Positions 2,701 through 64,000 of a DNA stretch of 64,000 nucleotides are shown one piece after another. The stretch lies in NCBI GenBank assembly GCA_012842395.1, contig DUSX01000002.1, positions 1-64,000 on the forward strand. Direction: 5' to 3'. This DNA comes from Bacillota bacterium (GTDB lineage Bacteria; Bacillota; SHA-98; UBA4971). The position numbers and the translations under genes were made by a program. The notes under the pieces are model-generated. The model did not search any database. It was not told the DNA's origin and was given only the letters and a program-made list of their open reading frames with translations. Each line of letters begins with the position of its first letter. The stretch's first letter is position 1.

Positions 2701-4866
2701 CTACCGCTCTGCGCTGTCGTCATGATGCTCAGTAGCTACCTGGGAACCAGCAAGGTTATGGCCCGCCCAGAATGCCGCCATGAACGCGTGCCGGTTGCGA
2801 GCGATCTCGTCCTTCGTGCGGGCGAATTCGACCAACACGACGGCAAGACGCCGACGGAAATCCTCTGGTAGATGCATATCCAACCTGCGCGCGACCTCCT
2901 CCATGCGCGCCAAGCCTCGCTCGTACACAACCGTGGGCGTGAGGTCTGTGCCGAAGGTCATCACACGATGCTTGAGGAAGTCTTTGCCCTCGCGACCCAC
3001 TTTCGTCGCGTGCCAATATTGGCGCGAGAAAAGCCCTGTGAGGTGTCCACATGCAAAGCCGAGCTCCTCCGCATCACGAAAGACCATGTCCTCCGGGCGA
3101 CCCCCGGAAAGCATGGCGTGAATTTCCTTCCAGTCTCTCATTTGTTCACCTCCCTTTTCGCTACGGATTTCTCGGTTGTACTCCTGGAGAAACCGCCTGA
3201 ACGTCAGGTAGAAGACTATCTCATCGTTCAAACGCGCGTAGCTATCAGGAAGCTGGTGGCCGAGCTCAGACATACGCGCGGCCGAGTTTGCAAGGAAGCG
3301 CTCAGAGGCTATGTTCCCTCTATGCATGGTAGTGTTGAGAGAGTCCCAAAGAAAGGGCGCACCAAACGCTGTGCCAAGAAGGTACGGGAGAGAAGTGTAG
3401 GTGTGCCGCACGAAAGCCTCTTGTTGCTCATCCATGTTCTTGCCACGCAGCCGACGCGCAATGTCCACTGCGTACTCTCCGAGGCCACTGACGAGCTTCG
3501 TGACCTGCCTCGCAGTTGACGGAAGGACGTCTTCGATCGTCGCCCTCAAATGAACGTCGCCGCGAGATGGGTTCCCCGTGAAATATGTCAGATAGAGCCG
3601 GTACTCTTCTCGGCTGAACTCTTCTGGCAACACCATCTCGAACCCGGTGATGGCCTTTAGATGCACATCGAGCCGGCGAGCATCGTGGTGCCTAGCGAGC
3701 ATCCTAGTGATCCCTTCCACGAATTCGTCGCGTGCGTCTTCGTCGCTCAGGAACTCGTCAAGAATCGGCAAGGCCACTACTGACCCCTGTATTGGGTCTA
3801 TCCGCGCTGCTCTCTTAGCCATGTCCTTGCCAGTGGCACTGGCGACAGGAGAGAAGATCTCCTTGGTGAGCCATGTGTCGAAAGAGGATGACAGCTTCAT
3901 GAACACGTTGGCACCGTACGAGAGGGCCTTGTAGCATTCAGGGCACACTGCAATCCCCTTGACCATGTTGGCGTTGTTGAGACCGCTCTTACCTTCAGCC
4001 CATGAAATCGGGAACGGGCAGTTCCAAGTAGGAAGAAGCCAAGGCCAGGCCTTGCAGTATGCAGAAACCACGCGGCCAGACGCATCGCAGAAGAAGCACT
4101 TGCTATCGCTTCCACACTCTTCTCCACCTTCGGTGGCCTCGTCGATCTTTGCCTCCCAGAACCTCTCGAGGACCTTTTCGAGCCTGGCCACTATGTGTTT
4201 GCCAGCGGCTATCATGCTCGGCCCCACGTAGGACATTGACGGATCCCCGACCACTATGGCGTCGGCGAGCCCGAACGGGCCATCATCTGTCAACTCCGCT
4301 AGCACAACCACGCCGAGCGCCTTCTCCGAAGGGTCGAGCGATGCCGCCCTGATGGCACGGTGCAGCTCGAGGGCTACATTCTCCAACTCGTCCGAGGACA
4401 AGGCGAAACCTATTGTCCTTTCGAGGCGCCCAGCAAGAAAGGCTTTGACGCCTTCGCAAGTAGGGCTTTCGTTGAACGCTTTGATGTCTCCATCATATAT
4501 CGGGTACACGGGGACGCCGTACTTGCCCTGTGGAGTTCTGGGATTCCCGCCCTTTGGCAGAACAAACGGTGCCCCCACGCCTCTCCCAATGTCCTGAACA
4601 AACACGTTTTTCTTCCCTTTTGCCCCGCGGCTTGCCCCATATGAACCCCATTGCTGCATGGCGAGCGCCCGTGCGATGCAGCAATGGCTCACTGGTGAAG
4701 AGGCTATTGGGCTGCCATCCCGCTTGATCTCCACCACGAATACGTGCGCAAAGAAGTTCCTGGCGTTCTCCGAAGCAACATCTGATATCTGCTTTAGCAC
4801 CTCGGCTGGAGAGAGCCCGCCCTTCACAAGCGGCCTTCCGAGTCTAACGAGGCTCTCTATCAGCAT
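2701..4866 (-). CDS. cas8b: Type I-B CRISPR-associated protein Cas8b/Csh1
   Basis: Large subunit of type I-B Cascade, expected to read the PAM and recruit Cas3. The 721-aa protein has two CxxC pairs, one in SKCFFCDASG and one in VCPECYKAL, about 75 residues apart, forming a zinc-finger-like site characteristic of the TM1802/Cas8b/Csh1 family. The rest is poorly conserved and mostly helical, as usual for Cas8. The ATG at 4866 lies 33 nt after the cas6 stop. Identity rests on the double CxxC, length and position in the operon rather than on conserved catalytic residues. Confidence 0.82.
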   Translation of the reverse strand: MLIESLVRLGRPLVKGGLSPAEVLKQISDVASENARNFFAHVFVVEIKRDGSPIASSPVSHCCIARALAMQQWGSYGASRGAKGKKNVFVQDIGRGVGAPFVLPKGGNPRTPQGKYGVPVYPIYDGDIKAFNESPTCEGVKAFLAGRLERTIGFALSSDELENVALELHRAIRAASLDPSEKALGVVVLAELTDDGPFGLADAIVVGDPSMSYVGPSMIAAGKHIVARLEKVLERFWEAKIDEATEGGEECGSDSKCFFCDASGRVVSAYCKAWPWLLPTWNCPFPISWAEGKSGLNNANMVKGIAVCPECYKALSYGANVFMKLSSSFDTWLTKEIFSPVASATGKDMAKRAARIDPIQGSVVALPILDEFLSDEDARDEFVEGITRMLARHHDARRLDVHLKAITGFEMVLPEEFSREEYRLYLTYFTGNPSRGDVHLRATIEDVLPSTARQVTKLVSGLGEYAVDIARRLRGKNMDEQQEAFVRHTYTSLPYLLGTAFGAPFLWDSLNTTMHRGNIASERFLANSAARMSELGHQLPDSYARLNDEIVFYLTFRRFLQEYNREIRSEKGGEQMRDWKEIHAMLSGGRPEDMVFRDAEELGFACGHLTGLFSRQYWHATKVGREGKDFLKHRVMTFGTDLTPTVVYERGLARMEEVARRLDMHLPEDFRRRLAVVLVEFARTKDEIARNRHAFMAAFWAGHNLAGSQVATEHHDDSAER

Positions 4867-4899
4867 CGCTTACACCCCCAGAATTCTTCGTTTCCAAGG

Positions 4900-5649
4900 T
4901 CAGCGGGCGCCTGCAGGGCAAAGCTCGACGCATCCAAATCCTTGCGAGTTCTTGGCTCCAAAACCCGCGTCGAGCCCGAGCTGGAGGAGAGCCTGCGGCC
5001 CCTCCAACTGGAGCGTGCATGAGTATCCCTTGATCACTGTCCCTAGATACTTGACGATATGCATGCGCGGTTGGCGAAATGGCCGCACGCGGACCGTTCC
5101 GTCGGGTGCCGGGCAACCGTGGACGGCCTCGTATTTCTTCCTCAGATTGTCACAGAGCTGTTCTTCGAACTCCGGTTCTCCTGGTTGAAAGTAGCACGTG
5201 TACTTTGCACCGTCGGCTTTCGAGAGCGTGCTGTACACAACGATCGGCGACAGCGTTCGCACGATTGCCCTTTCACCGGTTATGGTGGGAGACTGCACTT
5301 CCACCTTCTCGATGCCGACCTCTTCCTTGCCGAGTAGAATCGAACCGCGCGCAAGGAGACACGTTGCAAGGGACCCGCAGAAATCATCCGATGGAGATGA
5401 GACCACCAGCTTGAGCGAGCCATTGAAGCATATCACCCCTTCTCGGGCATTAATCTCGTAAGGCCCCATGAGCCGCGAGAAGGTAAACATCTTGAAAGAC
5501 CGCGATCCATGGAGAAAGCCTCGGTCATGGAAAAACGCCGCGGTGATCTGGTCGAGGTTGGCGTAGAGAGATGCCTGGAGCAGCCTGTTGTAGTGTGTGG
5601 GTAACCTCAGACTTGAGCCCGCCGGAGAGAAAGTAATACTAAGGCGCAT
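4900..5649 (-). CDS. cas6: CRISPR RNA endoribonuclease Cas6
   Basis: Cas6 cuts the precursor crRNA within the repeat. The 249-aa protein shows a RAMP-like fold pattern and ends with the glycine-rich loop GAKNSQGFGCVEL, the Cas6 C-terminal signature. A His in the N-terminal region (LPTHYNRLLQASLY) is a candidate catalytic residue, in the context commonly seen in the family. It is the first gene of the minus-strand cas operon. A GGAGGAGGTC ribosome binding site precedes the ATG at 5649. Confidence 0.85.
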   Translation of the reverse strand: MRLSITFSPAGSSLRLPTHYNRLLQASLYANLDQITAAFFHDRGFLHGSRSFKMFTFSRLMGPYEINAREGVICFNGSLKLVVSSPSDDFCGSLATCLLARGSILLGKEEVGIEKVEVQSPTITGERAIVRTLSPIVVYSTLSKADGAKYTCYFQPGEPEFEEQLCDNLRKKYEAVHGCPAPDGTVRVRPFRQPRMHIVKYLGTVIKGYSCTLQLEGPQALLQLGLDAGFGAKNSQGFGCVELCPAGAR

Positions 5650-6325
5650 CCAGACGACCTCCTCCTGTCACTACTGAACGGCATTCGTGCGCATTCGCTT
5701 TCGCGCTTCTGGTCTTGCGGTACCTGGCTTTGCGTCCTCGATCGTGCGTATTCGGTTCCATGCTTGTTGGGATCACAACGCAGCGACGACGCGTCGGGCA
5801 TCCGACCTAGCCCGCCACTGGTTCGGCACTTGGGGCCACCCGACGGGACTATCAAGCGGCAAAGAGGGAACTTCTCGTGGAGATCTGGGCTGAGTTGACT
5901 GATGCGGCTGCCGCTCAATTCTCGCGTGGCAACTGGCTGGACGGACCACGCTCTTCGGCTGAGCCGTGTGCGCCGAGCCCGACGAATCAGCCATCCCGAG
6001 CTAGTCTCTGATTTCGCCGCGAAACGACAAGTTCCTTCCAGAGAGCACGACAAGTCTCGAGCGACGACGCCCTGGCGGCTCCGGTCCATTTCCACTTCGA
6101 ACAGCATGTCGGCGCGACGGGACCCGAAACGGCGGGGTACTTGTCGAAGACCTGCCTATCCAATAGCGAAAGGGAGGCCCGACGGCGGAGAGTGTGCTAT
6201 CGGTGCAAGATCCAGCGTTGTCCATGCCAGCGTTGTCCACCCCAGCCACGCCGGATCTGACGATCGTGGCAGCGGTCGGCGGGAGGGCTGGCATACACTC
6301 GAGTTCGGCGAGATAGCGAGGTACA
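5650..6325. other. Non-coding region between cas operon and sfsA
   Basis: This 676-bp stretch separates the divergent cas6 and sfsA genes and should hold both promoters. Several long overlapping open frames exist but none shows a recognisable domain or a good start. There are no regularly spaced repeats, so it is not a CRISPR array. The only repetition seen is the 13-mer CCAGCGTTGTCCA, present twice 16 bp apart near 6213-6241. Confidence 0.5.
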
Positions 6326-7204
6326 ATGGACCAAGGCAGGGGCTCGCGGGAAAAGGGGTGCGCAAACGGTGCCATGTTTGAAACAGTGCCATGCTTGAAA
6401 CGAGATGAGAGCCTGATCGCAGGAACCTTCATGTCCAGACCGAACCGCTTCCTTGCAACCGTGAGGCTCGACACGCACCTCGAAACCGGCGAGGTCGGCG
6501 GTGTCGTTGCTGTTCACGTGGCCGATCCCGGGCGCCTTGAGGAGCTACTGGTGCCCGGTCGCTTGGTCTATCTCGCGAGCGCGCGCACGAAGTCGCTCGG
6601 AGGTTTCGAAGCGCCAGCACCCGACCCTGTCGCGCCCCGGCCGACGGCGGCGGGGCGTCACGGCCCACGCGAACCTCACGGCTCTCGGCGCAAAACTTCG
6701 TACGACCTAGCGCTTGTCGACCATGAAGGGCTTCTCGTGTCAGTCGATTCGAGGGTTCCCAACGACCTCGTGTTTGCCGGCTTACAGGTGGGATTCTTCC
6801 CAGACCTCGCGCTCTACTCAGAAGTCCGGCGCGAATGCGCGTACGGAGAGAGTCGCATGGACTTCCGGCTTTCAGGATCGGCCGCAGGTGACTGCCTGCT
6901 CGAGGTGAAGTCTGTGACCCTCGTGAGGGGCGGGCGGGCCCTGTTTCCGGACGCCCCGACGGCGCGGGGGTTGCGCCATGTGCGCGAGCTTGCCCGGGCC
7001 GTTGCGCAGGGGCTCAGGGCCATTGTGGTGTTCGTCATCCAACGTGACGATGCTGAGTCCCTTTCTCCCAACGACGAGACCGACCCCGCCTTTGGGGCAG
7101 GGCTCCGCGAGGCGGTACGGTCAGGGGTTGAGGTGCGCGCATACACGTGCCGGGTGGCGCTGGATAGGATCTGTCTGCACCGGGAGGTGCCTGTGCTCCT
7201 CTAG
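6326..7204 (+). CDS. sfsA: Sugar fermentation stimulation protein A (SfsA)
   Basis: SfsA-family protein, a nuclease-superfamily fold with a DNA-binding N-terminal OB-like domain; its exact role is unsettled. Family hallmarks are present: RPNRFLATVRLD at the N-terminus, HVADPGRLEELLVPG (the HCPNTG..LL.PG box), VNSRVPNDLV-like VDSRVPNDLV, YGESRMDFRL, LLEVKSVTLV and FPDAPTARGLRHVREL. The acidic/Lys cluster D-F...EVKSVT resembles the PD-(D/E)xK active site. The ATG at 6326 has a GAGG 4-5 nt upstream; an ATG at 6374 (MFETVPC) fits family length better but lacks a well-spaced site. A residue stretch of about 25 (APAPDPVAPRPTAAG...) is an insertion compared with Escherichia coli SfsA. Confidence 0.9.
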   Translation: MDQGRGSREKGCANGAMFETVPCLKRDESLIAGTFMSRPNRFLATVRLDTHLETGEVGGVVAVHVADPGRLEELLVPGRLVYLASARTKSLGGFEAPAPDPVAPRPTAAGRHGPREPHGSRRKTSYDLALVDHEGLLVSVDSRVPNDLVFAGLQVGFFPDLALYSEVRRECAYGESRMDFRLSGSAAGDCLLEVKSVTLVRGGRALFPDAPTARGLRHVRELARAVAQGLRAIVVFVIQRDDAESLSPNDETDPAFGAGLREAVRSGVEVRAYTCRVALDRICLHREVPVLL

Positions 7205-8139: not shown

Positions 8140-8514
8140 ATGGTGCTTCCAGAAGACGGATTGCTTCTCAGGGTCTTCATCGGCGAGAGCGACAAGCACG
8201 ATGGCATCCCTCTATACGAGTGGATCGTTCGTAAAGCCCGGGAGCACGGGCTAGCCGGCGCGACGGTCCTGAGGGGCATCATGGGTTACGGCGGTCACAG
8301 CCGGATCCACTCCGCCAAGATCCTCAGGCTTTCCGAGGACTTGCCTGTGATTGTCGAGATCGTTGACGTGCGCGAGCGGCTTGAGGCATTCCTGTCCGTC
8401 ATCGACGGCGCGATACCGGAGGGGCTGGCTACGACGGGGAGCGTCCGGGTTAGGTTCTACCGCGGCGGGACAGGGCGAGGGACGACGCAAGGAACTGGGC
8501 GGGGAGTGGGATGA
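8140..8514 (+). CDS. DUF190 family protein
   Basis: Compact about 124-aa protein of the DUF190 family, related in fold to PII-like signalling proteins and often found beside crcB. Visible family features are LLLRVFIGESDKHDGIPLYE, VRKAREHGLAGATVLRGIMGYG and LPVIVEIVDVRERLEAFL. The ATG at 8140 follows the crcB stop by 10 nt and has GAGGTG 7 nt upstream; GTG at 8131 is an alternative. The last about 18 residues (GGTGRGTTQGTGRGVG) are Gly/Thr-rich and probably disordered. A role in sensing or modulating fluoride export is inferred only from linkage. Confidence 0.88.
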   Translation: MVLPEDGLLLRVFIGESDKHDGIPLYEWIVRKAREHGLAGATVLRGIMGYGGHSRIHSAKILRLSEDLPVIVEIVDVRERLEAFLSVIDGAIPEGLATTGSVRVRFYRGGTGRGTTQGTGRGVG

Positions 8515-8515
8515 G

Positions 8516-9376
8516 GTGCAGGGCAGGGCATTGGAGAGGTCAGGGAGGGGAGGGACGCACGCCATATCGCGGCACACGACTTACTACAAACTCCGGGACG
8601 CCATGACAAAGCCGGGCTGTCCCATATGCAGGCTTGTGAGCGACGCGGTTGCTCGCTACCTCGAGACGTTCCTCTATGAGAATGTCAACGATCCCGGCAT
8701 GCGGGCGGACCTACGGCGGTCCAACGGCTTCTGCCCTGAGCACGCCGAGCTGCTTCGAGAGCACGGGGACCCGCTCGGCCACGCCATCATCTACGGGGAC
8801 CTCGTCGACCACGTGCTCGAGTTGCTTGAGAGCCTCCTCCGGGTCTGCGGTAGCGGCAGTGTGCGGTTGCCCGCGACTGGGACGGTCGCCTCAGTGGTGG
8901 ACGACTTGCTTCCCGGGCGCAGATGCCCGGCGTGCCTTGTGGCGCGTGAGGCAGAGCAAAGGTATATCGAGGTGCTAATCGCTGAGCTGGGATCGATGAG
9001 CGACATCGGACCAAGTTCCGACCCCGGGCGGGGCACGGGTGTTGGATCCAGCGTCGGCCTCGGGTCTAGCGCCCGGCTTGGGTCGGCCGCCTTCGAATCG
9101 GGCCCCGACCTCGAGAGGGCGCTTGCGTCATCTGACGGGCTGTGTCTTACCCACCTCGTTCAGGCATTGAAGGCGTCGCGATACGGGGCGGCTGCCACGA
9201 GGCTCCTGCAGGCGTCCATAGCGAAGCTGGAGGAGCTGAAGGCCCAGCTTGCTGAGATAAGGCGGAAGCACGACTACCGCTTCTCCGGCGAGCCGTGGGG
9301 GCCCGAGAAGGACGCTTGGGCGAGGGCCGCAGCGCTTTGGAGCGGGCATCCGGCACAGAAGGGGCATACCCCTTGA
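8516..9376 (+). CDS. DUF6062-like cysteine-rich protein
   Basis: About 286-aa soluble protein with paired metal-ligand-like motifs: KPGCPICRLV near the N-terminus, NGFCPEHAELL, GRRCPACLVAREAEQRY and DGLCLTHLVQAL. The order CPxC, C..H, CPxC, C..H suggests two zinc-binding halves separated by about 110 residues. This looks like the DUF6062 family, whose function is unknown. I start it at GTG 8516, directly after the DUF190 stop, with GGGGAG upstream; TTG 8531 is possible. The region between the two halves has a Gly/Ser-rich run (GRGTGVGSSVGLGSSARLGS) with simple-repeat character. The C-terminus is a charged helix. It probably belongs to the crcB transcript. Confidence 0.7.
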   Translation: MQGRALERSGRGGTHAISRHTTYYKLRDAMTKPGCPICRLVSDAVARYLETFLYENVNDPGMRADLRRSNGFCPEHAELLREHGDPLGHAIIYGDLVDHVLELLESLLRVCGSGSVRLPATGTVASVVDDLLPGRRCPACLVAREAEQRYIEVLIAELGSMSDIGPSSDPGRGTGVGSSVGLGSSARLGSAAFESGPDLERALASSDGLCLTHLVQALKASRYGAAATRLLQASIAKLEELKAQLAEIRRKHDYRFSGEPWGPEKDAWARAAALWSGHPAQKGHTP

Positions 9377-57926: not shown

Positions 57927-58871
57927 GTGAGGAAGAGGAGAGTCCTAGTCTTCGGCGTGATCGGTCTGGCGCTCCTCTCCGTGGTCGTGCTCATCCAGAT
58001 GGGGCCGTCCTCTCCTTCGAACCAACCACTGGCGACGCGCGGTCGCTTGGGGGCGTCAGGCAACAAGATCGCCGTGGCATACCTGGATGGTGCGATCGCC
58101 GAGGGGCGATCGTCAGTGGCGACGACGGGGGGCATAACCCCGAGGTTGGTCGCCAGGTACCTCAAGAAGCTGGAGGCTGATTCCTCGGTCAGAGCGGTCG
58201 TCTTCAGGATAGATAGCCCAGGAGGGTCGGTTGCCGCTTCCCAGGCCATAGCCGGAATGATCGAGGAGTTCTCAAAGCCGGTCGTGGTCTCCATGGGGGA
58301 CATCGTTGCCTCGGGAGGCTATTACATAGCAGCACCTGCGGACCGCATCTTCGCGATGCCGGGCACGATGACTGGCTCAATAGGGGTCATCACAAGCATC
58401 ATGGACCTACACGGGCTGTACGACAAGCTCGGCATCAAGGATCAGGTCATAAAATCCGGCCAGCACAAAGACATGTACCAGCGCACCCTCACCCAAGAAG
58501 AACGTGAGCTCGTTCAGAAACTATCCGACGCAGCCTATGAGCAGTTTGTGGCGTACGTCGCGACTCATCGGGGCCTGCCCGTCGAGAGGGTGCGCGAGCT
58601 CGCCACGGGCGAGTTGTTCTTGGGAAGCCAAGCAGTGGAGCTCGGGCTCGTCGACTCTCTCGGCGACCTCGACGACGCTGTGGCGGCTGCTGCGGAGCTT
58701 GCGGGCGTGGAGTCTCCGGTCGTGTACGAGGTGCCGGCACCCGTGTTCCTGGTCGACTTGTGGGGCCTCCTGGGAGAGGTGCAGGCATTTGCGAAGACCG
58801 TCGTGCTCAGCCCTGAGGAACGCCTCCTGTGGCGGCTGCGCGAACAGCCGATGTTGGAGATGCGTTATTGA
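57927..58871 (+). CDS. sppA: Signal peptide peptidase SppA (S49)
   Basis: 314-aa membrane-anchored serine protease with an N-terminal anchor (VLVFGVIGLALLSVVVLIQ) and a single S49 domain. Conserved features: AVVFRIDSPGGSV, nucleophile S129 in GDIVASGGYYIAAPADRI, MTGSIGVI, and K181 in IKSGQHKDMYQRTLT, 52 residues on as in Bacillus subtilis SppA. It degrades signal-peptide remnants in the membrane. GTG 57927 has GGTGGAG 6 nt upstream. Next gene is a Yip1 protein 46 nt away. Confidence 0.95.
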   Translation: MRKRRVLVFGVIGLALLSVVVLIQMGPSSPSNQPLATRGRLGASGNKIAVAYLDGAIAEGRSSVATTGGITPRLVARYLKKLEADSSVRAVVFRIDSPGGSVAASQAIAGMIEEFSKPVVVSMGDIVASGGYYIAAPADRIFAMPGTMTGSIGVITSIMDLHGLYDKLGIKDQVIKSGQHKDMYQRTLTQEERELVQKLSDAAYEQFVAYVATHRGLPVERVRELATGELFLGSQAVELGLVDSLGDLDDAVAAAAELAGVESPVVYEVPAPVFLVDLWGLLGEVQAFAKTVVLSPEERLLWRLREQPMLEMRY

Positions 58872-58916
58872 GGGGATGCCGCGAGGAACGGGTGGGGCGC
58901 GAAGGGGAGGATGGAT

Positions 58917-59525
58917 GTGTCCGGCCGAGTTCTCGATTGGCTGTACGGGGTGATGGCGAGCCCCGTTGAGGCGCTCCGGGCCGTGGCCGAGGAGAAGCCT
59001 GTGTGGTGGGCGTTCGCGGTCGTCGTCGGAGCCGTGACGCTTCTGTCTTTCGGCATGCTCTCCCAAGCGAACCTGGACGCTTTGCCGGGGGTGACGTTCG
59101 AGGACCTGCTGGGGTCGGTTCTCATCGTTGCCATCGTTGCGTCGACCGTGGGCTACTTCATCGGAGTGGGCATCCTTCACCTTGCAGCGTTGCTTTTCGG
59201 TGGCGAGGGGAGTTTCGCCGGGCTTGTCTCGGCGATGGGGTTTGCCCAGTTCCCAGCGTTGCTTCTCCTTCCTCTCATGGTGCTCGCGCGAGTGGGTGGT
59301 CCCGTGGTGGCAGGCTTGTCCACCGTTGCATCGATCGGGGTCGTGGTCTGGGTGGCCGCTCTGAGCGTGATCTCACTGCGCGAGGCACACGGGATGTCCA
59401 CGAGGGCAGCCATCGGCACGTGTGTCTTCAGCATAGTGATTCCAGTGGCGGCCCTGGTTGGCCTCGCGCTTTTGGTCGTCGTGATCGCAGGGATCATAGG
59501 CGCCGGGTCGTCCATCGCCCTTTGA
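58917..59525 (+). CDS. Yip1 domain membrane protein
   Basis: About 202-aa integral membrane protein with five hydrophobic segments (WWAFAVVVGAVTLLSFGML, LLGSVLIVAIVASTVGYFIGVG, FPALLLLPLMVLARVGG, VASIGVVVWVAALSVISL and a C-terminal run). The N-terminal GRVLDWLYGVMASPVEALRAVAEEKPVWWAF is typical of the bacterial Yip1 family. GTG 58917 is preferred because GGGGAGG is 6 nt upstream; ATG 58911 directly abuts the ribosome binding site. Function unknown; probably co-transcribed with sppA. Confidence 0.85.
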   Translation: MSGRVLDWLYGVMASPVEALRAVAEEKPVWWAFAVVVGAVTLLSFGMLSQANLDALPGVTFEDLLGSVLIVAIVASTVGYFIGVGILHLAALLFGGEGSFAGLVSAMGFAQFPALLLLPLMVLARVGGPVVAGLSTVASIGVVVWVAALSVISLREAHGMSTRAAIGTCVFSIVIPVAALVGLALLVVVIAGIIGAGSSIAL

Positions 59526-59730: not shown

Positions 59731-60366
59731 TCAGTCTTTCGGCATGAGAGCATCCATGTCGAGCTTCGCTTTCTCGGCCTTGTAGTAGTCGTAGGAGGCC
59801 GGGAAGTTGAGCGCCCCGCCCACGAAGCTTTGCGGCCATTGCGACCTATACGTGTTATAGTCCCTTATAGCCACCTGCCAGTCATCGAGCGCTGTGCGGA
59901 TCTCGTTCACTGCCTCCTCAAGCCCTCTCATGGTTTGCTGAACTATGGCTGGCGAGAAGAGCTGCGGATACGCTTCACGCAGGGCATTCACGTTGACCGA
60001 GAGCGCAAGGCCCTCGGCAGCCTCACGAAACCGCGTCGCGGCCTCAATGGTCTTCTGTGGGTCTCCTTCGGCCGCCGCAGCCGCAAATTCCTGCCCGGCG
60101 CTGTCCAATGCCTGGGCGCGGGCCTTTATAACGTCGGTCAGCGTATCCTTCTCATGTTCCAGGAAGTCTTTCTCCATGGCCCATATGCCTTTGATCTTCT
60201 CGCTTAGAGTCTCGAGCGCGGCGCCGTATCGTCCTTCCTGGGCGAGCACGCTTTGTTGGAGATTGACCATGTTGCGCTGAATCCCCATGACCCACGAGAA
60301 TCCAGCAGCTGCCACCAAGAGCACGATGACCAGGCCCGCGATTCCGAAGAGGCATCCCCTTCTCAT
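59731..60366 (-). CDS. lemA: LemA family protein
   Basis: 211-aa protein with one N-terminal membrane anchor (CLFGIAGLVIVLLVAAAGF), LemA-like helical body (VMGIQRNMVNLQQSVLAQEGRYGAALE, a four-helix bundle) and ending in FPASYDYYKAEKAKLDM. LemA proteins commonly accompany TPM-domain membrane proteins; the exact function is unknown. Its ATG overlaps the stop of the TPM gene by 4 nt, so it is the last gene of a coupled three-gene operon. Confidence 0.92.
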   Translation of the reverse strand: MRRGCLFGIAGLVIVLLVAAAGFSWVMGIQRNMVNLQQSVLAQEGRYGAALETLSEKIKGIWAMEKDFLEHEKDTLTDVIKARAQALDSAGQEFAAAAAEGDPQKTIEAATRFREAAEGLALSVNVNALREAYPQLFSPAIVQQTMRGLEEAVNEIRTALDDWQVAIRDYNTYRSQWPQSFVGGALNFPASYDYYKAEKAKLDMDALMPKD

Positions 60367-62438
60367 TGCTCTCCCTCCCCATAAACCTTGCGCAGAATGT
60401 CGTCGATATTCCTCGCGATAGACACAACAGCTCCGTCGAGGTCTCCAGCGTTGGCGTAAGATGCGGCCTCCTCTATGAGCGGTCCCAGGTCAGACGACGT
60501 GAGACGCGGCAACCCTCGGCCGACGCTGTACCAGACCCGCCCTTCCTCGGGACGGGCATCGGGGATGATCAGGAACACCAGGCCGTTGTTACGTTGGGAG
60601 CCCTCTCGTTCCCCCAGCATCAGCCAGCGACCGTAGTGCGTGGACCAGTCGGCGGGGTGCTTCACGCCAGGCTGCACGACTATGACCGTCTCCGCCAGCC
60701 CGGCCGCACGCAAGGCTTCGAGGGTCTGGTCCGCGGCTCTGGCCGCCCGCTCCCCCACGAGCCCCTGCGGGTCGACGACCCAGTAACGACCAAGGCGTGG
60801 AAACGCCGGGTCGCCGGTAGGCACCTCAACGTTCTCGTCGTATGGGCCTCTCTCGTGCTGCGGCGCGGAAGACGCGCCGCCTCGGACGCAGCCTGCAGCG
60901 TTTGAGGCCACGAAGAGCGAAAGCCCGGCCGCGACGACCACCATCAGCAGCAGAGAGAGCGTGTGGGCGCCCCTCGGGTGTTTGCCCGGATCCTCAGCTC
61001 CGGGCTGACCGGGCTGACTACGGTCTCTCGGGCGAGCTTCCGGGCGAGCTCCAGATGGCCCAGATGCCTCGCATGCTCCGGGCGCTCCAGATGCCCCAGG
61101 CGACTTAGCCGTTTCGGGCGCTCCGGATGCCCCGGGTGTCGCGGACGCATCGGTGGAGACTGCGGTGGCGACTGCATCCCCTGGCGAAGGGGATGCTGCG
61201 ATGGAGGCTGAGGCGCCCGCATGGGCCGGACGTGCGCCTCCGCCGTCGAACTTGCGGGCACAACCGGCTCCGCCGCCGCCCGCGCACGCGCAGGCGCAGG
61301 CGCACGATACGCACGCGCAAGCGCATGAGACGCAAGCACAGCCGATGGCTCTGCCGCCGAAGCCGCCTCCTCCGCCTGACTTGCGAGACCCGCCTGACTT
61401 GTCGCCGGAGTCGCCCGCGTGCGGGGAACGGCCAGGCCTTGAGCCCCACGAAGGATGCCCGACCGGGGGGATGGGGAAATAGGTGCCGTAGTAGACACCG
61501 CGTCTGCCTGTGTACCCGCCCCGTGTGGCGGCCGCAAGAGCGACGATGATGGTGACCAGGATCACGACTGCAATGACTACCATCAGCGCGAACACGGCGA
61601 CCACCGCGGGGGCCGCGCGCCTCGCGGCTGATTGCTGGCCCACCGCCCCGGTCCCCCGAAGCCCATCGCCTCCCGCGCCGGCTCCCGACTTGGTCGGGGC
61701 TTTCAGGTCGGGAAAGAGGCCTGACGAGAACGCGAAACTTACCCTGAAACGCTCCCCCCGGTCGAGGCTGGTTCGCCAGACGAGCTCTTCACCGGTCCTC
61801 TGTGAGGGCTCCGGCGACGCGTACAAAACGTCCTCGGGACCGCCCGGGTTCTTCACGCGGATCTCTAGCTGCTCGACCCTTGCCCGGTCGTACCACCCGG
61901 GGACGAACTCGAATCCGACAGCGTCCGCTCCGCTGGGGTGCCCCATGCTCTCCTGACGGACCCGGAAGCTGAGGTCGAAGACATCGCCCGTGCCGTAGTC
62001 TGCGTCGAGATCGACCCGCACGCCGCTCCAAGAGCCGTAGTCAGCGCGGCTAACCTCTGCGGCCGCGCCTCCGCGGGAGAGAATGACGTAGTCGTGGTCC
62101 GGGAGACCCACGGTGACCCAAGGAATGTGGCCGCCCGTCACCTCCCACTCCTGGTGGTAATCGGCTATCCAGCTGCCATCCGGCTCAGGGGCGATGCTCA
62201 CGACGTAACTGCGTATGCGGTACGTGCCGGTATCCTGGGCAGCGCATGCCACGCTCGCGCCAGGACCGGTGACCCGCCACCCGGCGGCGAGGAGACACGC
62301 GAGGCACATCGCCAGAGCCCATACGAGTCTGCGCAAGTCTCGGGTGGGGCGCGACCCGGTTACTTGCCTTGACACTGCCGCGCCTGGTGTCTCCGATAAC
62401 GCTGTCGGGGGGTGAAGCCTTCTGGGCACGTTCGTCAT
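60363..62438 (-). CDS. Membrane protein with DUF2207-like domain, Cys-Ala tract and TPM domain
   Basis: 691-aa protein. Signal-like segment about 36-60, then a beta-rich DUF2207-like domain (about 70-240: YRIRSYVVSIAPEPDGSWIA), TM1 about 277-302, a Gly-rich loop, a tract at 367-393 with ten cysteines (pattern CAC-VS-CACAC-VS-CACACAC, then GGGGAGC), an Ala/Pro/Ser-rich linker, TM2 about 493-514, and a TPM domain from about 540 (RYWVVDPQGLVGERAARAAD, NNGLVFLIIPDARPEEGRVWYSVGRGL). If the first domain is outside, the Cys tract between TM1 and TM2 faces the cytoplasm and the TPM domain is outside. GGGAGG precedes ATG 62438. Starts and stops overlap by 4 nt with the radical SAM gene upstream and lemA downstream. 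Confidence 0.82.
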   Translation of the reverse strand: MTNVPRRLHPPTALSETPGAAVSRQVTGSRPTRDLRRLVWALAMCLACLLAAGWRVTGPGASVACAAQDTGTYRIRSYVVSIAPEPDGSWIADYHQEWEVTGGHIPWVTVGLPDHDYVILSRGGAAAEVSRADYGSWSGVRVDLDADYGTGDVFDLSFRVRQESMGHPSGADAVGFEFVPGWYDRARVEQLEIRVKNPGGPEDVLYASPEPSQRTGEELVWRTSLDRGERFRVSFAFSSGLFPDLKAPTKSGAGAGGDGLRGTGAVGQQSAARRAAPAVVAVFALMVVIAVVILVTIIVALAAATRGGYTGRRGVYYGTYFPIPPVGHPSWGSRPGRSPHAGDSGDKSGGSRKSGGGGGFGGRAIGCACVSCACACVSCACACACAGGGGAGCARKFDGGGARPAHAGASASIAASPSPGDAVATAVSTDASATPGASGAPETAKSPGASGAPGACEASGPSGARPEARPRDRSQPGQPGAEDPGKHPRGAHTLSLLLMVVVAAGLSLFVASNAAGCVRGGASSAPQHERGPYDENVEVPTGDPAFPRLGRYWVVDPQGLVGERAARAADQTLEALRAAGLAETVIVVQPGVKHPADWSTHYGRWLMLGEREGSQRNNGLVFLIIPDARPEEGRVWYSVGRGLPRLTSSDLGPLIEEAASYANAGDLDGAVVSIARNIDDILRKVYGEGEQ

Positions 62439-63952
62439 CGTGCTTTCCTCCCTGTCAGGCTCGTGCTGGGCTGCTCCTCCAGGCCGCCTTCGCTGCGGCT
62501 ACGCGGGGCGCCGCAAGCGACGTCGCTCTCCGCACCGGCTTTCCCGCGCTCCCCGTGCCCGCCCCGCGCGTTCAACATCTCGAGGGGACACGCGCCCCCG
62601 CACAAGACGAAGTGACGGCATCGAGCACACTCCGGCGGAGCGAAGCCGTGGGCCCTGACCTTGCGTGCGAGCGGATGGTTGAATATGCGTTCCCACGGGG
62701 TCGTAAGGATGTTTCCGAGACCTTCGCCGTGCAGCCAGGACTGGCAGGGCACGACCACCCCGTCCGGCCGCACCGCCATGTTCGTGTGGCACGCCGAACA
62801 CGATTTGGCCCCGAACCCCATTGCCACCGGGTCGAGGTCCTTGTAACACGTGGGCGAAAACCAGCTGAACTCCAGGTCCAGTTCGCGCGCCACGGCCGCG
62901 GCCTCGGCAAGCACGCCCTTGAGGGCCTGGGGTTCTATGGCGTCGGGATGTCTCGCACCACGTCCTGTCTGGATGAGAGTGTTGCAGCCCACATACCTTA
63001 CCCCGATGCCCGCCAAGAAACGCAGGAGCTTGGGGAACCCGTCGGCGTTCGCCTTTGTGAGCGTGGTATTGGTGGAGACATACATGCCCGCGCCGAGAGC
63101 CGCCTTGAGGCCCGCGCACGTCTCCTCCCAAGCGCCCGCCGAGCCCACGATGGCATCGTGCACCGTCGGGTCGGCCGACTCGATGCTCACCTGAACGTAA
63201 TCGAGGCTCGCGGCCTTCAACTTGCCCACGAGGTCCGCAAGTGCTCTGCCATTGGTGATGAGCCCCGTCACGAACTTCTCGGCGTGGCGTACAAGCTCCA
63301 CCAAGTCGCGCCGCATGGTGGGCTCGCCACCCGTGAAATTCACCATAGGTATCCCAGCGCGCCACAAGCGGTCGAGCACCTGTTTCCATGACTCGGTGTC
63401 GAGCTCTCGCACGTTGGGCATATCCGAGGCATAGCACCAGGCGCACGCGTTCTGACAACCTGAGCGCCCCATGGAGGCGATCATGAGGTCCATGCGGGCG
63501 GGAGCTCGCCACTCGACCCGAGACATGACGCGCCCGGGAACGCCACGCTCGGCCGGGCACGCGCCGCGCGAAAGCTCCGCGATGAGCCCATACATGTAGT
63601 CGATGTCCGCTTCTATCTCGGCTGTCGGCACGCGCGGGTAAAGCTCATGCACGCGGCGGGCGGTCTCGCGCTTCACCTCTGACCAGGTCTCCTCCGAGAC
63701 CTCACTGCCCGGCCGCGTGAGCTCGTGAACCACTTCTATGAGCGCCTGCACCACGTCGGCGGCGCTTTCGTCCAGGAGCAGGAGCTGGCTGCCGTTTATC
63801 CATAGGAGGTTCCTGGGGCGCCTCGCGATAGCAGCGAGCACCGTTCCTCCAGACCGCCTGAGGTGGAGGCGGATCACGCCTGGTCCCTCAGGGTCTATGG
63901 TCGCGTGGAACATCCCTGGGTCCCTCGAGAACCGTCGACGTCGCGCTCTCAA
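62435..63952 (-). CDS. Radical SAM/SPASM protein with N-terminal PqqD-like domain
   Basis: About 505-aa enzyme. N-terminal about 95 residues resemble a PqqD-like peptide-recognition (RRE) domain (RRPRNLLWINGSQLLLLDESAADVV). The radical SAM core has GCQNACAWCYAS (CxxxCxxC; C166, C170, C173 if counted from the TTG), the GGEP motif NFTGGEPTMRRD and later strands. The C-terminal SPASM part has cysteines in SCSACHTNM, VVPCQSW, PPECARCRHFVLCGGACP, typical of two auxiliary clusters. SPASM enzymes modify peptides or proteins. I start at TTG 63952 after AAGGAGGAGC; the frame also stays open to GTG 64000 at the window edge. Its stop overlaps the Cys-tract membrane protein start (ATGA), so that protein is the prime candidate substrate, by inference. 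Confidence 0.85.
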   Translation of the reverse strand: MRARRRRFSRDPGMFHATIDPEGPGVIRLHLRRSGGTVLAAIARRPRNLLWINGSQLLLLDESAADVVQALIEVVHELTRPGSEVSEETWSEVKRETARRVHELYPRVPTAEIEADIDYMYGLIAELSRGACPAERGVPGRVMSRVEWRAPARMDLMIASMGRSGCQNACAWCYASDMPNVRELDTESWKQVLDRLWRAGIPMVNFTGGEPTMRRDLVELVRHAEKFVTGLITNGRALADLVGKLKAASLDYVQVSIESADPTVHDAIVGSAGAWEETCAGLKAALGAGMYVSTNTTLTKANADGFPKLLRFLAGIGVRYVGCNTLIQTGRGARHPDAIEPQALKGVLAEAAAVARELDLEFSWFSPTCYKDLDPVAMGFGAKSCSACHTNMAVRPDGVVVPCQSWLHGEGLGNILTTPWERIFNHPLARKVRAHGFAPPECARCRHFVLCGGACPLEMLNARGGHGERGKAGAESDVACGAPRSRSEGGLEEQPSTSLTGRKAR

Positions 63953-64000
63953 CTTGCCTCGCTCCTCCTTCTGCCCGTCTCCGCGGGCGGGGCGTGCCAC

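Follow-up and report, generated by a model that had tools for sequence, protein, structure and literature searches.

Radical SAM enzymes of the RRE/SPASM type are best known for making small secreted peptides, and the locus described here raises the question of what such an enzyme would act on when its neighbour is a large membrane protein with a dense run of cysteines. In the window, by which we mean the whole 64,000-nucleotide stretch of Bacillota DNA that was analysed, the genes for a radical SAM enzyme, a membrane protein and a LemA-family protein all lie on the - strand and are joined by ATGA stop-to-start overlaps, as the initial annotation had described. Its count of ten cysteines within 27 residues of the membrane protein (residues 367-393) could also be confirmed. 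By searching the window genes against Pfam, we found Radical_SAM (3.6e-24), SPASM (1.8e-8), TPM (8.9e-9; PF04536, 35.9 bits vs a cut-off of 22.1) and LemA (1.1e-16). The features of the locus are as follows.

62435..64000, - strand: radical SAM/SPASM enzyme gene; the N-terminus runs past the window edge, with the longest ORF start at contig position ~64066
63566..63916, - strand: RRE/PqqD-like domain at the N-terminus of the enzyme (residues ~29-145), modelled by AlphaFold as four strands followed by three helices
63014..63460, - strand: radical SAM core (PF04055)
63434-63457, - strand: CX3CX2C motif of the enzyme (residues 182-189), invariant in families A1 and A2
62588..62800, - strand: SPASM domain (PF13186 and family alignment)
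60363..62438, - strand: Cys-tract membrane protein fused to a TPM domain (691 aa; AlphaFold model)
62271..62342, - strand: signal/N-terminal hydrophobic segment of the membrane protein (residues ~33-56)
61719..62231, - strand: extracytoplasmic beta-sandwich of the membrane protein (residues 70-240; most blocks with pLDDT 84-97)
61527..61610, - strand: TM1 of the membrane protein (residues 277-304), leading into the cytoplasmic linker
61260..61340, - strand: Cys-Ala tract, the probable substrate segment (residues 367-393, CACVSCACACVSCACACACAGGGGAGC)
60909..60956, - strand: TM2 of the membrane protein (residues 495-510), where the fused TPM part begins
60399..60779, - strand: TPM domain of the membrane protein (residues 554-680; PF04536)
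59731..60366, - strand: LemA-family protein, third gene of the operon (PF04011), a lineage-specific partner

Two convergent neighbours on the + strand encode an SppA-like signal peptide peptidase (window 57927-58871) and a small multi-TM protein (58911-59525).

The enzyme carries the cluster motif, the TIM-barrel core and the auxiliary-cluster cysteines of the SPASM/twitch branch of the radical SAM superfamily. By aligning 18 diverse family members, we found that C182, C186 and C189 as well as C401, C419 and C471 are invariant. RRE domains are found in both SkfB and CteB, as is an open Aux I site, which in CteB is filled by a cysteine of the substrate (PMC6231123). By analogy with CteB, C401, C419 and C471 form a candidate Aux I site in which one coordination position would be free, although a fourth ligand could be provided by the less conserved C385 or C404, as in fully ligated SPASM enzymes. 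The ligands of a CX2CX5CX3C motif (C458, C461 and C467, plus C471) are present in the window clade and in archaea, whereas in the clostridial clade C458, C461 and C467 (Aux II) have mostly disappeared. That clade accordingly has a twitch-like appearance, similar to SkfB, and the chemistry may hence differ between clades. The N-terminus had been called PqqD-like. In the window protein this domain stays under the Pfam cut-off, but the AlphaFold model of the enzyme (mean pLDDT 80.6) has the RRE topology of strands followed by three helices, and an archaeal orthologue (L099) matches PF05402 with 27.8 bits vs a cut-off of 23.4. Fold searches with the model retrieved SkfB (over its full length), SuiB, CteB, PqqE and anSME, and sequence profiles retrieved SkfB (3e-40), PqqE and SuiB, so that SkfB, a sactisynthase, is the best match by both sequence and fold. 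No NCBIfam radical SAM maturase family scored over its cut-off, the best being NirJ2 with 101 bits vs 500, and the same holds for the other clades.

If the tract is the substrate of this enzyme, the two should travel together, and the initial annotation had predicted as much. This was borne out, mostly as adjacent genes, across phyla and in both prokaryotic domains. The opposite outcome, a tract occurring broadly without a radical SAM neighbour, is not what we observed: the strict tract, which has a single site in this genome, is found in 9 of the 398 genomes of the window's phylum, and all 9 fall among the 18 enzyme-positive ones. The enzyme profile (A1) separates these 18 genomes, at 383 bits or more, from all others, at 202 bits or less. 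A tract or a second tail type described below (CHSA) lies beside the enzyme in 15 of the 18, and the remaining three loci are truncated by contig ends (G009 and G011, and G007 inside the tract).

A scan of GTDB species for CACACACAxxG returned at least 118 stretches, of which 80 loci were listed. The bacteria among these listed matches belong to Lachnospiraceae, other Clostridia, Eggerthellaceae, Acholeplasmatales, Chloroflexi, Pirellulales, Armatimonadota, Aminicenantes and Krumholzibacteria, and the archaea to Heimdall- and Sigynarchaeota, Methanomassiliicoccales, Thermoplasmatota and Methanocella. Among the matches listed, the enzyme is encoded within 8 kb of 48 of the 61 Gly-flanked tract genes, and 11 of the other 13 have an enzyme match elsewhere in the genome (370-536 bits), whereas chance tracts without Gly context are accompanied by the enzyme in 0 of 17 cases (Fisher 2e-9, a value that overstates independence since the genomes sampled are related). 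In two small MAGs (L159 and L166) the tract is present and the enzyme was not found. In 148 genomes of the Asgard phylum, tail and enzyme occur together in 48, the tail only in 4, the enzyme only in 7 and neither in 89 (Fisher p=1.9e-26, inflated for the same reason), and the pattern recurs in independent phyla. The four tail-only Asgard genomes gave no enzyme match, and at seven Asgard loci the enzyme lacks a Cys tail in the surrounding ~5 kb (L300-L306; genomes G865, G793, G812, G806, G785, G818 and G800), two of these genomes (G785 and G806) having CA tails on other contigs. Starting from the enzyme, a tail was found beside 35 of 35 primary enzyme loci in two clostridial families and Chloroflexota (5 of 148 Gemmiger-family genomes, 16 of 200 genomes from one Lachnospiraceae family and, among 201 Chloroflexota genomes, 14 primary loci). 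Thus, of the proposal that the locus represents a new protein-modification system, the enzyme-tail pairing holds, but the system is widespread and not peculiar to this genome.

A congener retains only a fragment of ~120 residues of the radical SAM enzyme (L054, G002:C15:22000-40000, at 8354-8971). The remnant is syntenic, lying between SppA and an AddB-like gene, so that the SppA-like gene is a neighbour in G002 as well, and no match to the tail/TPM protein or to LemA was found there. This locus looks as if the cassette had been lost as a unit, or the MAG misassembled.

The tails themselves, which read CACACACAGGGR or CHSACHSA, fall into two types. CA-type tails are made of (CA)n with VS or HSS interruptions and end in GGGR or GGGRAGCSxKDFY. 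CHSA-type tails are made of (CHSA)n, with a cysteine every four residues, and end in CVSGG(F/A)R or similar. Across the 148 Asgard genomes, CA and CHSA tails never occur in the same genome. In the enzyme tree (quick method, midpoint root), all CHSA-linked enzymes cluster together (SH-aLRT 99), separately from the CA-linked ones, and bacteria and archaea are interspersed. In each of three gene sets, a single tail pattern accounts for every member. The first set comprises 12 window-class genes, which come from Krumholzibacteria, Chitinivibrionia, Aminicenantes and the lineage of the window; the other two are Asgard sets of 15 CA and 7 CHSA genes. Synonymous differences are nevertheless found in 38-60% of codon comparisons across the three sets; the zero amino-acid differences in this count arise by construction, and its weight lies in all members having been found with one pattern. 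A reversed control pattern gave 0 matches in the 398 phylum genomes and in the Asgard controls. The match list of a DNA-letter search with CACACAGGG was uninformative.

We then asked which part of the membrane protein belongs to the pair. In a sister genus (G010), the tract protein and the TPM protein are two ORFs of 367 and 223 aa, one with a signal, a beta-rich domain, a TM helix and the tract near its C-terminus, the other with a TM helix and TPM; in G016, a single in-frame stop separates the two. Because the tract protein and TPM are separate ORFs in sister genera, the window gene is, on this sequence comparison, a fusion of an ectodomain/TM1 tract protein with a TPM protein. In four more distantly related genomes (G022, G027, G106 and G139) the partner is a membrane protein of ~500 aa which ends in ...SSCACACACACASSGGCT or ...SCACACACACAGGGGCT and whose gene overlaps or abuts the radical SAM start, and in three others (G024, G109 and G289) the tail protein terminates in ...CHSACHSACHSACVSGGAR. 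The usual position of the tract is the C-terminus, on the predicted cytoplasmic side of the membrane protein and after the last TM helix, the internal tract of the window-type fusion being the exception. A Pfam search indicated that tail proteins of other clades do not include the TPM domain, and LemA is kept beside the enzyme/tail pair only in the window's family and in G016. Hence, of the view that the substrate is the TPM membrane protein, the large membrane protein was retained, but TPM and LemA are companions confined to the window's own lineage. As neither accompanies the pair in other lineages, a TPM-specific system was rejected.

The candidate substrates are transmembrane proteins of 300-730 residues. 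The cytoplasmic location that topology prediction had given to the tract agrees with the charge distribution: 34 of 42 proteins have more K+R on the tail-bearing flank of the last TM helix, and the tail is therefore predicted to be cytoplasmic. The AlphaFold model of the window protein comprises a signal helix, a beta-sandwich, TM1, a disordered stretch including the tract (305-494), TM2 and TPM. When the tail protein was compared with PDB folds, it showed only a partial beta-sandwich likeness to ribophorin I and M1-aminopeptidase N-terminal domains, and no function was indicated by it. Most tail proteins match no Pfam family, and beyond general domains Pfam and NCBIfam yielded no name above cut-off.

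Several cassettes have additional components. Near one enzyme, some genomes encode two tail proteins (L107, at 3840-4871 and 5530-6495; L109; L134/L141). In one lineage, a weakly toastrack-like protein (DUF4097, below cut-off) adjoins the pair (L051:5164-6060, L093:5302-6228 and L094:3850-4653), together with a second exported protein, possibly in an envelope-stress context. The LemA/TPM and toastrack-like neighbours hint at envelope homeostasis, which we regard as a lead only. In several cassettes of Chloroflexi, Planctomycetes and Armatimonadota, a second radical SAM/SPASM homologue that lacks CX3CX2C adjoins the catalytic one (L133:3680-5047, L160:1800-3509, L175:1663-2922, L286, L288, L289 and L293-L298) and is a probable pseudo-enzyme partner.

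Since many bacteria and archaea carry this same pair, the enzyme very probably modifies the tail. Taking together the domain architecture, the invariant catalytic and auxiliary cysteines, the adjacency and co-occurrence in two domains, the protein-level invariance of the tail and its predicted cytoplasmic topology, the reading we favour, with a confidence somewhat better than even, is that the enzyme is a substrate-specific protein maturase (RRE, radical SAM and SPASM/twitch) that acts on the cytoplasmic Cys-periodic tail of its neighbour, guided by the RRE and likely forming thioether crosslinks. We have high confidence that the tail is its substrate; that the product is a thioether has an even chance or slightly more. 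In such a mechanism, the RRE-like domain would dock on the flexible segment between the TM helix and the tail, and the [4Fe-4S] cluster of CX3CX2C would cleave SAM. The resulting 5'-deoxyadenosyl radical would take a hydrogen from a tail residue, with Ala the likeliest donor, or Ser/His where the tail is of the CHSA type, and a tail cysteine, probably held at the open Aux I site, would attack the radical-bearing carbon. Each cycle would yield one intramolecular thioether (-2 Da) and would be repeated along the tract. Whether the pair forms a cross-domain system, shared by Bacteria and by Asgard, Thermoplasmatota and Methanocella archaea, in which an RRE-guided radical SAM enzyme, joined in some phyla by a dead radical SAM partner, builds a multiply crosslinked cytoplasmic Cys tail on a resident membrane protein, is in our estimate evenly balanced.

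Other explanations of the pair have to be weighed against thioether formation. The enzyme might alter the tail by another radical chemistry, such as epimerisation, conversion of Cys to formylglycine or thioaldehyde, C-C or ether crosslinks or desaturation, with the cysteines free or metal-binding afterwards. SPASM enzymes catalyse many reactions, the near solved relatives PqqE, SuiB and anSME make no thioethers, and tail periods of two and four residues need not share one crosslink geometry. We nevertheless consider this unlikely, given that all tails are defined by cysteines at fixed periods, like thioether-forming substrates, and that the sactisynthase SkfB is the top match in sequence and fold. 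Formylglycine formation of the anSME type was rejected, because the classical recognition motif C/S-X-A/P-X-R is absent from the tails, the +2 residue in CACA being Cys.

Less probable still is a role of the tail as a metal-, Fe-S- or redox-sensing segment which acts on the enzyme or recruits it, as an anchor, a cluster donor or an electron donor, while the real substrate lies elsewhere. Cys-rich segments do bind metals, and a Cys run could simply bind a metal or an Fe-S cluster; many lachnospiraceal tail proteins (among them L098, L108, L118, L126 and L232) also have a zinc-ribbon-like CPGCGAPRPEGK..CDYCG between the TM helix and the tail, and some Asgard enzymes are not beside a tail gene. 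However, the architecture of the enzyme is that of substrate-modifying maturases, and in the cassettes read no other gene is consistently common to the clades, nor was any small ORF conspicuous as a precursor; the module consists of two genes and therefore offers no other conserved candidate substrate. As to chance or a low-complexity artefact, in which a run of GC-rich codons happens to lie near an enzyme that has nothing to do with it, CACACACA runs do arise in GC-rich genomes, in tract ORFs without the Gly-flanked context. Yet such runs come without the enzyme (0/17) while Gly-flanked runs have it, the tail is invariant in Asgard genomes despite synonymous change, and the reversed-pattern controls are zero. 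Chance codon runs were thus rejected by the co-occurrence tests, and we give them a negligible probability.

In the open-licence literature, no paper describes the enzyme-tail pair, gives the sequence of the tail or links a radical SAM enzyme to DUF2207 or a TPM domain; subscription papers were outside this scope, so that an earlier mention is possible. For radical SAM with LemA, the open-licence matches listed included only unrelated papers. A survey of the field (PMC9062424) treats peptide precursors. The pair suggests that the chemistry of RiPP makers was adopted for the tail of a membrane protein and kept from gut Lachnospiraceae to Asgard archaea; if true, RiPP chemistry would be used on a cellular membrane protein and not on a secreted peptide. 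Protein chemists would gain a substrate-enzyme pair that is easy to recognise and comes in many natural variants, and the pair provides a functional lead for two unannotated families.

Compared with known systems, the tail proteins resemble DUF2207/TPM (YgcG-like) proteins in having a signal, a beta-rich ectodomain, a TM helix and a Gly-rich cytoplasmic tail, and one clostridial member matches DUF2207 weakly (0.005, below cut-off); we know of no Cys tract in ordinary DUF2207/TPM members. Like the pair described here, anSME is a SPASM enzyme, matches in fold and acts on a cysteine of a large protein, but its C/S-X-A/P-X-R motif is not in the tails and, to our knowledge, it has no RRE. In the target of the ACGX-system radical SAM/SPASM enzyme (TIGR04340), Cys recurs every four residues, as it does in CHSA tails, but the match to this family is weak (65.7 bits for an archaeal member vs a cut-off of 400). 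The closest parallel is to the sactisynthases SkfB, CteB and AlbA, with which the enzyme shares an N-terminal RRE-like domain, a radical SAM core, a SPASM/twitch C-terminus, three invariant auxiliary cysteines and a Cys-rich candidate substrate. In contrast to these systems, which are known to act on small secreted peptides whose leader is cleaved off, no conserved protease or export gene accompanies the pair, scores are far under the NCBIfam cut-offs for these families, and neither a small precursor with a leader nor a protease or exporter, by which sactipeptides and ranthipeptides are defined, is conserved in the cassettes read. By analogy, the pair may be likened to a sactisynthase system that lacks the small precursor, as a variant of RRE/SPASM maturation in which the candidate substrate is a transmembrane protein.
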